A DNA stretch of 64,000 nt, from contig JACDOG010000009.1 of assembly GCA_017656305.1 (NCBI GenBank), positions 1-64,000 of the forward strand, given 5' to 3'. Numbering within the stretch: position 1 is the first letter of the stretch; every line of letters starts with the position of its first letter. Below the pieces are notes generated by a model. It ran no database searches. It had not been told where the DNA came from and saw nothing but the letters and a program-made list of their open reading frames with translations. This stretch comes from Thermoanaerobacteraceae bacterium. GTDB taxonomy: Bacteria > Bacillota > JADQBR01. Shown here in pieces: positions 16,448 through 37,286 of the stretch. A program made the translations under genes and the position numbers.

Positions 16448-16598
16448 GTTTAAAAGATTTTGGTACAATTTGTCGGCAAAGCGTGTTCCTGGCTTCTTGT
16501 TTGTTTAACATCGCGAGAAAGAGAGCGGTTTAGGGGAACAATGTTAGCCAAAAGGTGAATGATTGAACACAAATAACATAAAATGTTCGGGAATTTTA

Positions 16599-16627
16599 TT
16601 GACAAATTTTTTGCCTTTTGGTATTAT
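16599..16627 (+). promoter_or_regulatory. Strong sigma-A promoter of the purine operon leader
   Basis: TTGACA (16599-16604), a 17-base spacer and TATTAT (16622-16627) give a near-consensus promoter. Transcription should start near 16634, about 15 bases before the guanine aptamer. Between the guaA terminator and this promoter (16448-16598) I see no gene or other clear element. Confidence 0.85.
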
Positions 16628-16648
16628 GATTTTGACAACAACATAGGT

Positions 16649-16718
16649 CGCTGTATAATTGTGGGAATATGGCTCACAAGTCTCTACCGGGTAACCGTAA
16701 ATTACCCTGGCTACAGCG
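16649..16718 (+). ncRNA. Guanine-class purine riboswitch aptamer (first of a tandem pair)
   Basis: P1 is CGCTGTA (16649-16655) with TACAGCG (16712-16718); P2 is TTGTG/CACAA (16659-16663/16675-16679) and P3 is GGGTAA/TTACCC (16689-16694/16702-16707). The loops carry the conserved ATATGGC and CCGTAAA sequences that form the loop-loop contact, and the J2/3 segment reads CTACC. The specificity position in J3/1 (GGCTAC) is C rather than T, which indicates guanine/hypoxanthine rather than adenine. No terminator separates this aptamer from the next; both must act through one expression platform at 16807-16860. Confidence 0.9.
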
Positions 16719-16726
16719 GAAAGTGC

Positions 16727-16824
16727 ACCTAGAGTTCCGCATGCTTTTTTAGCATGGCTGGATCGAGTGGTGCAGGTGCCTATCGAGCACTACACCGGAG
16801 GGATAAAAGCCCAGACGGGTAGGT
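16727..16824 (+). ncRNA. PRPP-type (ykkC family) riboswitch aptamer (second of a tandem pair)
   Basis: The ykkC signature is clear: CTAGAGTTCCG near the 5' end, GCTGGATCGAG in the middle, and ACCGGAGGGATAAAAGCCC near the 3' end. P1 can form from ACCTA (16727-16731) and TAGGT (16820-16824); ATGC/GCAT (16741-16744/16752-16755) closes another hairpin. ykkC relatives sense guanidine, ppGpp or PRPP; a position right after a guanine aptamer and ahead of purine genes is the published arrangement of PRPP aptamers, so PRPP is the best call. Its 3' strand overlaps the terminator stem, so ligand binding should prevent termination. Confidence 0.85.
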
Positions 16825-16868
16825 TTCTGCTACAGCGGTGGAATCTACCCGTCTGGGCTTCTTGATTT
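16807..16868 (+). terminator. Riboswitch-controlled terminator of the tandem leader
   Basis: A perfect 16-bp stem forms between 16807-16822 and 16845-16860 (core GCCCAGACGGGTAG with CTACCCGTCTGGGC), followed by a weak T-rich tail (CTTGATTTT). The left arm overlaps the PRPP aptamer's last conserved bases and P1 strand. The loop contains TACAGCG (16831-16837), a copy of the guanine aptamer's P1 3' strand, which could pair with the P1 5' strand at 16649-16655 and oppose termination. Bases 16869-16969 hold only the ribosome site region. Confidence 0.85.
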
Positions 16869-16969
16869 TAACAAACTTTTTTAAGCGGGAGGTGAAATAC
16901 AGGCTTTGGGTTGGGGTGCTGGATAGGCAGGAAATTTACGGGAAAAATTATTTAAGGGAGTGAACGAGA

Positions 16970-18268
16970 GTGTTGGAAAGGCTGTTTAAATTAAAAGAAA
17001 ACAACACTGATGTGCGGACTGAGATTGTTGCCGGTGTTACCACTTTCATGACCATGGCTTACATCATCTTTGTCAACCCCGCTATTTTAAGTGAAGCCGG
17101 AATGCCGTTCGGCGCGGTCATGGTGGCAACCGTACTGTCTGCTGCTTTTGCGACCCTGCTCATGTCCTTAATTGCTAATTACCCGTTTGCTTTAGCACCT
17201 GGTATGGGACTTAACGCATTTTTTACCTACACGGTAGTATTGGGAAGGGGCTTGACCTGGCAGGCAGCTCTGGCTGCAGTATTTGTCTCCGGTCTTATCT
17301 TTTTGCTCTTGACCCTCACTAAGGCGCGTGAAGCCATTGTTAATGCCATTCCCATGTCGCTCAAGCTGGCTGTCAGCGCCGGCATCGGTCTTTTCATAGC
17401 GTTTATCGGTTTTAAAAATGCCGGCATTATCGAAAGCGACCCGGCTACTTTTGTCAAGCTGACTGCTGACTTCGGAAAGCCAGAAGTGCTGTTGGCTGTA
17501 ATCGGCCTGGTTATCACGGCTGTGCTAGTGGTAAAAGGCATCAAGGGTGCACTGCTGTACGGTATTTTAATTACCACTGTTATCGGTATTCCCATGGGAG
17601 TGACAAACATCAGCAATTTTAAGCTGGTCAGCATGCCGCCCAGCATTGCCGATACTTTCCTGGCGATGGACTTTAAGGCATTGATGGATTACGGCCTAAT
17701 CACCATTATCTTCACTTTTACCTTTGTGGACCTGTTTGATACCATTGGTACTTTGGTTGGTGTTGCCAGCAAGGCGGACATGCTGGATGAGAAGGGACAC
17801 TTGCCCAGGGCAAACAGAGCTTTGCTGGCTGATTCCTTGGGCACCACCTTTGGCGCCCTGTTGGGCACTAGTACGGTTACTACCTATGTGGAAAGCGCTT
17901 CCGGTGTCGCTGAAGGCGGGCGTACTGGACTGACTTCCCTGACAGTGGCCGTGCTGTTTCTGCTGTCCATTTTCTTCTCCCCGCTAGTGGGTATTATTCC
18001 CGGTGCCGCAACAGCTCCGGTGCTGATTATCGTTGGTATTTTCATGATGCAGTCGGTAATGAAGATAGATTTCACCAATTACCTGGAAGGTATTCCGGCA
18101 TTTTTCGCCATTGTGATGATGCCGTTTACCTTCAGCATTGCGGAAGGCATTGTCTTCGGTGTGCTGGCATATACCATTCTGCATGCACTGGCCGGTAAGC
18201 ATAAGGAAATCAGTCTTACCATGTGGATACTGACCATCTTGTTTATCATTAGATTCTTTATCGTTTAG
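16970..18268 (+). CDS. NCS2-family purine permease (AzgA/PbuG type)
   Basis: The 432-residue protein has about 12-14 membrane helices and the AzgA/PbuG pattern: NTDVRTEIVAGVTTFMTMAY near the N-terminus, LAPGMGLNAFFTY, and TFTFVDLFDTIGTLVGVA with the later STVTTYVESASGVAEGGRTG. These permeases import hypoxanthine, guanine or adenine with protons. It is the first gene behind the tandem guanine/PRPP riboswitch, so import is adjusted together with de novo synthesis. GTG 16970 follows AAGGGAGTGAACGA. The exact base preference cannot be told from sequence. Confidence 0.9.
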   Translation: MLERLFKLKENNTDVRTEIVAGVTTFMTMAYIIFVNPAILSEAGMPFGAVMVATVLSAAFATLLMSLIANYPFALAPGMGLNAFFTYTVVLGRGLTWQAALAAVFVSGLIFLLLTLTKAREAIVNAIPMSLKLAVSAGIGLFIAFIGFKNAGIIESDPATFVKLTADFGKPEVLLAVIGLVITAVLVVKGIKGALLYGILITTVIGIPMGVTNISNFKLVSMPPSIADTFLAMDFKALMDYGLITIIFTFTFVDLFDTIGTLVGVASKADMLDEKGHLPRANRALLADSLGTTFGALLGTSTVTTYVESASGVAEGGRTGLTSLTVAVLFLLSIFFSPLVGIIPGAATAPVLIIVGIFMMQSVMKIDFTNYLEGIPAFFAIVMMPFTFSIAEGIVFGVLAYTILHALAGKHKEISLTMWILTILFIIRFFIV

Positions 18269-18441: not shown

Positions 18442-18966
18442 ATGGCACAACCAAAAGTCGGCATAGTTATGGGCAGTGATTCCGATTTGCCGGTAATGAA
18501 GGACACTGTGGAAATTCTGGATCAACTGGGAGTGGAGTATGAAGTTGTCATAACCTCGGCCCACCGGGTGCCGCAGAAAACGGCTAAGTATGCGGCTACG
18601 GCAGAGGAGCGCGGTCTGGAAGTGATTATTGCCGCTGCCGGGGGCGCGGCACACCTGCCCGGCGTAATTGCCGCGGAAACGGCGCTGCCTGTGATCGGTG
18701 TACCTATCAAAACTTCGGCCCTGGGCGGTGTGGATTCTCTCTACTCCATAGTCCAGATGCCCAAGGGTGTTCCCGTAGCTACCGTGGCAATCAACGGTGC
18801 CAGGAATGCCGGTATCCTTGCTGCACAGATAATCGGTGTAAAGGATGAAGCTGTTCGTGAAAAAATTAAACGGTTTAAAAAAGAAATGGCGGAAGCTGTA
18901 GAGGAAAAGGATAAAAAACTGCAACAGCTAGGAGTTGCAGCCTATTTGGAGAATATGAATAAGTAG
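18442..18966 (+). CDS. purE: 5-(carboxyamino)imidazole ribonucleotide mutase
   Basis: The 174-residue protein has the PurE signatures [32 protein letters not shown] and a C-terminal [16 protein letters not shown]. PurE makes CAIR in the sixth step of IMP synthesis. In the class I route this needs PurK, but no purK lies between purE and purB, unlike B. subtilis; either purK is elsewhere, or CAIR is made from AIR and CO2 without it. ATG 18442 follows AAGGAGGAATAA. It is the first enzyme gene after the permease. Confidence 0.95.
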
Positions 18967-18970
18967 CAGG

Positions 18971-19018
18971 AATTCCCAGGTATGCCAGCTGTAAGAATAC
19001 CTGGGAATTGCATTTTAA
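18971..19018 (+). terminator. Strong hairpin between purE and purB, possible partial terminator
   Basis: AATTCCCAGGTAT (18971-18983) pairs perfectly with ATACCTGGGAATT (18997-19009) over a 13-base loop, followed by GCATTTTAATTTTT. The broken T-run suggests incomplete termination or a 3' stability element inside the operon rather than its end, because all following genes are pur genes. Confidence 0.6.
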
Positions 19019-19042
19019 TTTTTAGCGGAGGTTGATGCATTT

Positions 19043-20338
19043 ATGATTGAACGCTATACGTTGCCGGAGATGAAAAAAATCTGGTCGGAGGAAAACAAGT
19101 TTCGCAAGTGGTTGCTAATTGAAATTTATGCCTGTGAAGCCTGGGCCAAGCTGGGAAAGATACCGGAACAGGCGTTAAAGGAGATACAGGAAAAAGCGGA
19201 TTTTGATATTGATCGTATCAAGGAAATTGAAAGAGTTACCCGTCACGATGTCCTGGCATTTACCACTGCCGTGGCGGAGAAAGTAGGCGATGCTTCCAAA
19301 TATATACACATGGGCATGACTTCGTCCGATGTATTGGACACGGCGCTGGCGGTACTGATGAAAGAGGCCGCCGAAAAGATTCTGGAAAAGCTGGAGGAAT
19401 TACGTGAAGTCTTGGTACGCCGTGCCCGGGAAGAAAAATATACTATCATGATCGGCCGGTCTCATGGTGTGCATGCCGAACCGGTAACCTTTGGTTTAAA
19501 AATGGCTTTGTGGGTTGCGGAAGTGGACCGTAATATTGAACGGCTGAAGAAAGCAATGGAAACCATCAGTGTTGGGCAAATTTCCGGGGCCGTAGGCACT
19601 TTTGCCAATGTAGACCCACAAGTGGAGGAATACGTATGTGAAAAACTGGGGTTGAAACCGGCGCCGGTAACCACACAGATTATCCAGCGGGACAGGCATG
19701 CGGAATTTTTAACGACCTTAGCGGTAATAGGCAGTTCTCTGGATAAGTTTGCTACGGAAATCCGCAACCTCCAGCGGACGGACATTTTGGAAGTGGAAGA
19801 ATGGTTTGCCGAGGGGCAGAAAGGCTCCTCGGCAATGCCCCACAAGAAAAATCCCATCACTGCCGAGCGTGTATCCGGACTGTCCCGGGTGCTCAGGGGC
19901 AATGCCCTGGCCGCCCTGGAAAACGTGGCGCTCTGGCACGAAAGGGATATCACCCATTCGTCCGTGGAACGGGTGATTATTCCGGACAGCACCACCGTGC
20001 TGTATTACATGCTTCATAAATTTATTGAGATAATGGATAACCTGGTGATTCACAGGGACAACATGAAAGAAAACCTCAATAAAACTCTCGGCCTGGTATT
20101 CTCCCAGCGGGTACTGCTGGCCCTGGTGGAAAAAGGCGTGCTGCGGGAGACAGCCTATCACTGGGTGCAGCGGAATGCCATGAAAGCCTGGAAAGAAAAG
20201 CGGCAGTTTATTGATTTGCTCAAGCGTGATGAGGATATTACCAAGTACCTGTCTAAAAAGGAGATAGAAGGGCTTTTTGACTATGATTATCATCTGAAGC
20301 ATGTGGATTACATTTTCAAGCGGGTGGGAATTGAGTGA
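19043..20338 (+). CDS. purB: Adenylosuccinate lyase
   Basis: The 431-residue protein belongs to the fumarase/aspartase superfamily. It carries HMGMTSSDVLDTA, the GRSHGVHAEPVTFG segment and the family signature GSSAMPHKKNPI with its mobile catalytic loop. PurB acts twice, releasing fumarate from SAICAR in IMP synthesis and from adenylosuccinate in AMP synthesis. Length and motif order are normal. ATG 19043 follows AGCGGAGGTTGATGC. It sits between the hairpin after purE and the palindromic gap before purC. Confidence 0.96.
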   Translation: MIERYTLPEMKKIWSEENKFRKWLLIEIYACEAWAKLGKIPEQALKEIQEKADFDIDRIKEIERVTRHDVLAFTTAVAEKVGDASKYIHMGMTSSDVLDTALAVLMKEAAEKILEKLEELREVLVRRAREEKYTIMIGRSHGVHAEPVTFGLKMALWVAEVDRNIERLKKAMETISVGQISGAVGTFANVDPQVEEYVCEKLGLKPAPVTTQIIQRDRHAEFLTTLAVIGSSLDKFATEIRNLQRTDILEVEEWFAEGQKGSSAMPHKKNPITAERVSGLSRVLRGNALAALENVALWHERDITHSSVERVIIPDSTTVLYYMLHKFIEIMDNLVIHRDNMKENLNKTLGLVFSQRVLLALVEKGVLRETAYHWVQRNAMKAWKEKRQFIDLLKRDEDITKYLSKKEIEGLFDYDYHLKHVDYIFKRVGIE

Positions 20339-20349
20339 TTAAAGAATTC

Positions 20350-20425
20350 AGAAGACAGTAGCCAGCATGTGAGTCTAAAGAAAGTCTGCTGTATTTCGGT
20401 TTCTGACTCCTGATTCCTGTCTTCT
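20350..20425 (+). repeat. Palindromic, low-complexity intergenic element between purB and purC
   Basis: AGAAGACAG (20350-20358) mirrors CTGTCTTCT (20417-20425), with GAGTC/GACTC pairing inside. The right half reads as repeated CTGACTCC/TGATTCC/TGTCTTC units, a composition seen in degenerate dispersed intergenic repeats of related Firmicutes. No open frame of merit is present. It occupies most of the 157-base gap before purC. Confidence 0.5.
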
Positions 20426-20495
20426 CATCCTGAGATTTACGGTCTATGTTCAAATTTTGCTTTTTGTATCTAAACCTAGAAAGGAGAGAGGATTG

Positions 20496-21212
20496 ATGGT
20501 GGAAAAAAGACAACTGCTTTACGAAGGAAAGGCAAAGAAAATCTATCAAACGGATAACCCGGATTACCTGTGGGTGGAGTATAAGGATGATGCGACGGCT
20601 TTTGACGGTAAGAAGAAAGGGACCATTGCAGATAAAGGTTACTACAACAACCAGATTTCCGCTATTCTGTTTGACTGGCTGAAGCAAAAAGGAATTGACA
20701 ATCACTTTGTCAAGCTTTTGGGTGACCGGGAGCAGCTTGTAAAGGCCTTGGAGATTATCCCCGTGGAGGTTATAGCCCGAAACATTGCTGCCGGCAGCCT
20801 GGCAAAAAGACTGGGCATGGAAGAGGGAACGGAACTGCCCAAGCCTGTCCTGGAGTTTTGCTACAAGTCTGACGAGCTGGGCGACCCCATGATTAACGAA
20901 TACCATATTGATGCCCTGGAGTTGGCAACCATAGACCAGATGAACCAGATTAAAAAGCAAGCGTGGGAAATTAACAAGCTGCTGGTGGATTATTTTAAGG
21001 AAAAAGGCATTTTGTTGGTTGATTTTAAACTGGAATTTGGCGTGCACCGGGGGCAGGTATTGCTTGGCGACGAAATATCTCCCGATACCTGCCGCTTCTG
21101 GGATGCGGAAACCAAAGAGAAGCTTGACAAAGACCGCTTCCGCCGGGATATGGGCAGGGTGGAAGATGCTTACCGCGAAATTTTGCGCCGGGTGAAGGGA
21201 GAGGTTGATTAA
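20496..21212 (+). CDS. purC: SAICAR synthetase
   Basis: The 238-residue protein has the PurC signatures [28 protein letters not shown] and [13 protein letters not shown]. It joins CAIR to aspartate with ATP to make SAICAR. ATG 20496 is chosen because AAGGAGAGAGG is just upstream; an in-frame upstream start at 20457 would add a non-conserved extension. The stop codon overlaps the purS start by one base (TAATG), which indicates translational coupling. Confidence 0.95.
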
Positions 21213-37174: not shown

Positions 37175-37286
37175 CTCTTATCTGCCAGATGTAGATACAT
37201 CTGCTGGAATTAGCACCGCTGCCCAAAAAAAATGGCCGGTTGCCGGGTTTCATAGGGCCAGTCCCTCCACCTTCTCTCGATAAGAG
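37175..37286 (-). ncRNA. SAM-I (S-box) riboswitch
   Basis: On the - strand the P1 stem GATAAGAG/CTCTTATC closes at 37182-37175 and 37286-37279. Conserved SAM-I elements follow in order: AGAAGGTGGAGGGACTGGCC, CTATGAAACCCGGCAACC, GGTGCTAATTCC and CAGATAAGAG. The leader then continues to the terminator before metN. SAM-I controls methionine transport and synthesis genes, matching the metNIQ operon below. Confidence 0.96.

Follow-up and report, generated by a model that had tools for sequence, protein, structure and literature searches.

Two aptamers that precede a single terminator raise the question of how occupancy of one can influence the other, and which strands carry the decision. We addressed this question for a purine gene leader of a Thermoanaerobacteraceae bacterium, within a stretch of 64,000 nucleotides (contig JACDOG010000009.1, positions 1 to 64,000) that is called the window below. 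The first-pass annotation, made from the sequence alone, had described a tandem guanine-PRPP riboswitch and had explained its gate by a 10-mer, GCTACAGCGG, that occurs twice in the leader.

The leader and its genes are on the forward strand. A likely sigma-70-type promoter, TTGACA-17-TATTAT, is found at 16599-16627 (11/12 in a consensus scan), which would place the transcription start at ~16634. The same -35 and -10 boxes are present in G001. Just 5' of the -35 box, AATGTTCGGGAAT (16582-16594) resembles a reversed Bacillus PurBox, and the genome has a gene for a PurR of the B. subtilis type (364 bits); protein (PurR) and RNA control of the operon may be layered. A sigma-70 promoter look-alike with a perfect score (12/12, TTGACA-16-TATAAT) overlaps the guanine aptamer at 16632-16659. 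Its -10 box falls on the conserved GTATAAT junction, and its spacing is not kept in G001; transcripts started from it, if it is used, would lack the guanine P1 5' strand. The genes hpt and guaA are located upstream of the leader. Downstream, the first gene under its presumed control starts with GTG and encodes an NCS2-type purine permease (16970-18268; Pfam PF00860, 155 bits), followed by purE, purB and purC (18442-21212; NCBIfam TIGR01162, TIGR00928 and TIGR00081). In G001, the tandem leader (L123) is found directly 5' of purE, without intervening permease. Elsewhere in the window, there is a SAM riboswitch (S box leader, 37175-37286 on the reverse strand, 90 bits).

Both aptamers matched their Rfam models above the cut-offs (37 bits for the purine aptamer, 63 bits for ykkC/guanidine-I). 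The guanine riboswitch aptamer (RF00167, 16631-16733, 78.6 bits by cmscan) keeps all consensus pairs of the covariance model, with C16711 at the ligand-specificity position and CTA at 16711-16713, matching guanine aptamers. According to the Rfam alignment, its P1 5' strand TCGCTGTA (16648-16655) pairs with 16712-16719, so that CGCTGTA (16649-16655) had been correctly placed in this strand by the first-pass annotation. The aptamer assigned to PRPP (ykkC subtype 2b) spans 16718-16819 (65.4 bits by cmscan with the ykkC model), and its assignment is based on residue mapping to the T. mathranii aptamer. The guanine aptamer is directly 5' of the PRPP aptamer, with a single terminator and none between the two, as had been claimed. 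The spacing was revised: the P1 helices are only 4 nt apart (16719 and 16724; 5-7 nt are typical for the class), and the nine bases given earlier are the distance to the CTAG core.

The identity of the ykkC copy is indicated by individual residues. In the alignment, C75-A76-C77-C78 of T. mathranii correspond to 16793-16796 and G96 corresponds to G16814, and the pair C16793-G16814 keeps the 21-nt spacing of C75-G96. A G in this place, opposite the C75 equivalent, is absent from ppGpp aptamers. The ligand contacts A103, G104 and G105 align with 16821-16823, and P0 begins at ~16824. Thus, the stretch 16820-16824 is not part of the PRPP P1, as previously suggested (P1 is formed by 16724-16729 and 16769-16774), but part of it does contact the ligand by alignment. 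U16768 occupies the position of C49, which is aligned to an A of guanidine-I; this ykkC position, A in guanidine-I, is a pyrimidine in subtype 2 (PMC6031431). The P0 helix made from the aptamer ends is also present (16715-16722 with 16824-16831, 8 bp). The sole other ykkC match in the genome, L002, carries an A instead of G96, which is what a ppGpp aptamer should have, and its positions 1500-1645 read as a T box-ppGpp (ykkC 2a) leader, a known AND-type tandem, 5' of ilvE/ilvD. Because the specificity residues match and the ppGpp copy differs at the deciding position, the ykkC copy of the window carries the PRPP signature. The downstream genes for purine transport and biosynthesis (NCS2 permease, purE, purB, purC) are those expected from the class context. 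By its sequence, the leader belongs to the published tandem guanine-PRPP (IMPLY) class.

The intrinsic terminator (16807-16860) consists of 19-nt lower arms (16807-16825 and 16842-16860) topped by a 4-bp apical stem (16827-16830 with 16835-16838), and folds as a very strong hairpin (z -5.1). A simple terminator scan of the window made no call at 16807-16860, where the tail TTCTTGATTTT is interrupted. Matches of the hairpin to the Rfam families mir-3179 and mir-1289 were disregarded. Since unconstrained folding of the aptamers gave non-native folds, the alternative states were evaluated under constraints. By this measure, the completed terminator together with P1 amounts to -84.4 kcal/mol.

The anatomy of the two aptamers points to a strand that they have in common. 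We call this strand X (16712-16722): the guanine P1 3' strand (16712-16719) overlaps the P0 5' strand (16715-16722). The P0 3' strand, Y (TTTCTGCT, 16824-16831), follows directly after the PRPP ligand site and has two possible places, an 8-bp helix with 16715-16722 and the upper part of the terminator hairpin. We ran a pattern for the tandem arrangement over GTDB genomes and 399 genomes of the same phylum, which yielded 65 distinct tandem leaders. In every one of them, the P1 3' strand together with the GAAA that follows it pairs with TTTC plus 4-8 bases, so that a P0 X:Y helix of 6-11 pairs is found in 65/65 cases. Pairing of X with its own Y scores 7.68 on average, versus 6.51 with redistributed Y strands (sd 0.12, maximum 6.90 of 2000 redistributions, which ignore the kinship of leaders). 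Across an alignment of 44 leaders, 75% of X:Y cells are paired in register, compared to 46-58% when the strands are slid against each other. Changes are two-sided and occur across several types of X, with AGCG, CGTG, CGAG and CGGA going with the Y types TGCT, CACG, CTCG/CTTG and CCG, respectively. Y thereby imitates the guanine P1 5' strand (CGCT occurs with TGCT, CACG with CACG, CTCG with CTCG). In four close leaders, Y (16824-16831) is invariant.

The two helices competing for X are also balanced in strength. Mean duplex energies over the 65 leaders are -7.9 kcal/mol for P1 and -8.0 kcal/mol for P0, and in the window P1 with P3 reaches -42.6 kcal/mol versus -41.7 kcal/mol for P0 with P3. Such a balance is a requirement for an exchange that is poised to respond to ligand. 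Anatomy, conservation, co-variation and energy balance were all directly observed, and together they lend broad cross-species support to the exclusion of P1 and P0 by way of the shared strand X. At its inner end, P0 has an uncertain register, since the equivalent of A16722 is a PRPP contact in the structure from T. mathranii.

Sherlock et al. had considered that the neighbouring aptamers clash sterically, independently of any X:Y pairing. The 4-nt distance between the aptamers agrees with this alternative, as does the finding that guanine loosens the PRPP aptamer 5' end in B. megaterium (in-line probing). However, a clash does not predict that Y follows the sequence changes of P1 across species, which is what we see. 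As the explanation of the gate we regard it as quite unlikely, but it may act in addition to the X:Y exchange.

We consider it highly probable that the leader is a tandem guanine-PRPP riboswitch with one terminator that switches by means of strand X, shared between P1 and P0. X would pair either upstream with the P1 5' strand, when guanine is bound, or downstream with Y, extending P0, and the two states would be mutually exclusive over 16715-16719. With guanine and without PRPP, X should be held in P1 and P0 cut to ~3-4 bp, leaving Y and the P3 3' side free for the terminator to form (OFF). Without guanine, X:Y pairing would allow P0 and P3 to hold the terminator 5' arm (ON). PRPP would stabilise P0 and displace P1 even with guanine present (ON). 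The choice would be a kinetic one, made before the terminator 3' arm is transcribed, because the completed terminator is far more stable at equilibrium than either antiterminator. A kinetic choice is usual for switches of this type. For this RNA, ligand binding and the ON and OFF outcomes are predictions from sequence; the proposed strand exchange reproduces the published IMPLY outputs. The logic that the first-pass annotation had given, ON if PRPP is present or guanine is absent, is the published logic of the class (Sherlock et al., 2018, eLife 7:e33908), and is likewise predicted for this leader.

The annotation had reached this logic by another path, in which the P1 5' strand, when guanine is absent, pairs with a copy of its partner in the terminator loop (TACAGCG, 16831-16837) and so breaks the terminator. 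The underlying repeat is real, as GCTACAGCGG occurs exactly at 16710-16719 and again at 16829-16838. The loop copy offers a perfect 7-bp complement to the P1 5' strand, and the minimum-energy fold of a transcript ending short of the terminator 3' arm contains this pairing. Conservation does not support the path. The nearest relatives, G001 and G002 from the same family and G004 as the next nearest, have a guanine P1 3' strand that is the same or differs in one base (TACAGCG in G001 and G004, TACAGTG in G002), but their terminator loops, TGCTAAGCAG, TGCTACGCAG and TGCTAAATGGCA in G001, G002 and G004, respectively, can form Watson-Crick matches with the P1 5' strand of at most 3, 3 and 4, compared to 7 in the window. 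Across the class, the loop matches the P1 5' strand over 6 bp or more in 3/65 leaders, versus ~1 expected from mismatched pairs; the two matches outside the window are in L031 (8 bp) and L114 (6 bp). With the window left out, at least 7 bp are found in 1/64 leaders versus 0.17 expected. The mean longest loop match is 3.46 over the class and 3.23 after permutation (sd 0.08). We did not accept this as a class-wide enrichment, since it rests on three leaders, in all of which the copy coincides with an apical stem pairing Y. Absence of the copy from related leaders is the very observation that the annotation had named as refuting its proposal.

The energetics of the hairpin also argue against the loop copy as a switch. 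The 19-nt lower arms exclude 16831-16837 and would be left untouched by the pairing; just the 4-bp apical stem would be lost, at a cost of ~6 of 84 kcal/mol. We regard opening of the terminator by the loop copy as very improbable.

A more modest role of the copy would be that of a helper, restricted to the genome of the window, in which the P1 5' strand, once displaced by P0, re-pairs with the second copy (X', 16829-16838) and stabilises the ON state. Pairing of the P1 5' strand with X' would be nested around X:Y without a knot, with the two helices adjacent on the 3' strand, and L031 and L114 are capable of the same pairing. Before the terminator 3' arm is made, the computed energy would drop from -41.7 to -49.9 kcal/mol (8.2 lower), but Vienna multiloop energies of such size are unreliable. 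The pairing is also not conserved in relatives, and the repeat can be explained without it, so that we think a helper unlikely. If true, a three-strand exchange in the PRPP-bound or apo state would deepen the ON state and bias the gate, as a lineage-specific refinement of the P0/P1 exchange that possibly arose separately in L031 and L114.

The repeat is uncommon, though not exceptionally so. Among 3000 dinucleotide shuffles of the 220-nt segment, 33 (1.1%) contained some non-overlapping exact 10-mer repeat. The second copy runs from the end of Y through a tetraloop into the 3' half of the apical stem, and much of it is constrained. GCTA (16829-16832) is the end of Y, invariant in the four close leaders, and the residues G-C-G-G (16835-16838) belong to the apical stem of the terminator. 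CTGC (16827-16830), within Y, has two alternative partners, X in P0 and GCGG (16835-16838), and X and GCGG look alike because they share Y as their partner. In close relatives, GCAG or GGCAG serves in the same apical stem, and in L031 and L114, the other leaders with long copies, there is an apical stem on Y as well. Coincidence has to account only for C and A (16833-16834), and for a G instead of an A at 16837. The 10-mer repeat thus probably reflects the several alternative partners open to one strand, and not a conserved switching device.

A further complementarity was observed downstream of the terminator. The stretch GTGCTGGATAGGCAGGAAATTTACGG (16916-16943) is complementary to the PRPP P2 (16777-16790, 13/14) and also to the guanine L3/P3 (16695-16706, 11/12). 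GGATAGGCA..TTTACGGGA is kept in G001, whose leader precedes purE, and in G002, but not in G004. TTTACGG is the complement of the invariant guanine L3 loop, and occurs 35-150 nt past the Y anchor in 8/65 tandem leaders (0.35 expected from anagrams), compared to 1/22 singlet guanine leaders. Some of the TTTACGG cases may be coding.

The riboswitch arrangement is already described, and the leader of the window adds a new example. The work of 2018 did not settle how the aptamers of the guanine-PRPP gate influence each other, and according to a 2022 review, the precise structural changes of the gate were not yet established. Our comparison across species supports one answer, in which the guanine P1 and the PRPP P0 have a strand in common and a downstream strand copies the P1 5' strand. 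It also indicates that the X:Y bases, rather than the loop repeat, are the ones to change experimentally.

The tandem class was reported from Firmicutes only (2018, eLife 7:e33908). Six tandem leaders (L005, L079, L092, L110, L038 and L095) are in metagenome-assembled genome records labelled Chloroflexi or Ktedonobacterales, 5' of NCS2-like and cytosine-permease-like proteins and purL, as read from the open reading frames.

IMPLY behaviour was demonstrated for the B. megaterium codA leader (Sherlock et al., 2018, eLife 7:e33908). The leader of the window has in common with it the order and close spacing of the aptamers, the single terminator overlapping the PRPP aptamer, and the purine-gene context. 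It differs in coming from another organism, in the NCS2 permease that is first in its operon, and in that its function is predicted from sequence. For T. mathranii, the structure paper proposed an exclusion of P0 and P1 (Knappenberger et al., 2018, eLife 7:e36381; PMC6031431). There, as in the window, P0 would compete with the guanine P1 for a common strand so that only one of them can form, and C75-C78, G96, A103, G104 and G105 are matched, whereas the window has a G for A101 and a U for C49. The exclusion in T. mathranii was read from the folding of one sequence; here, it is followed as co-variation through 65 leaders. The T box-ppGpp tandem (ykkC 2a), represented in the same genome by L002, has the same ykkC fold as the PRPP aptamer of the window, but with an A at the G96 place, no guanine aptamer, and genes for branched-chain amino acids downstream.
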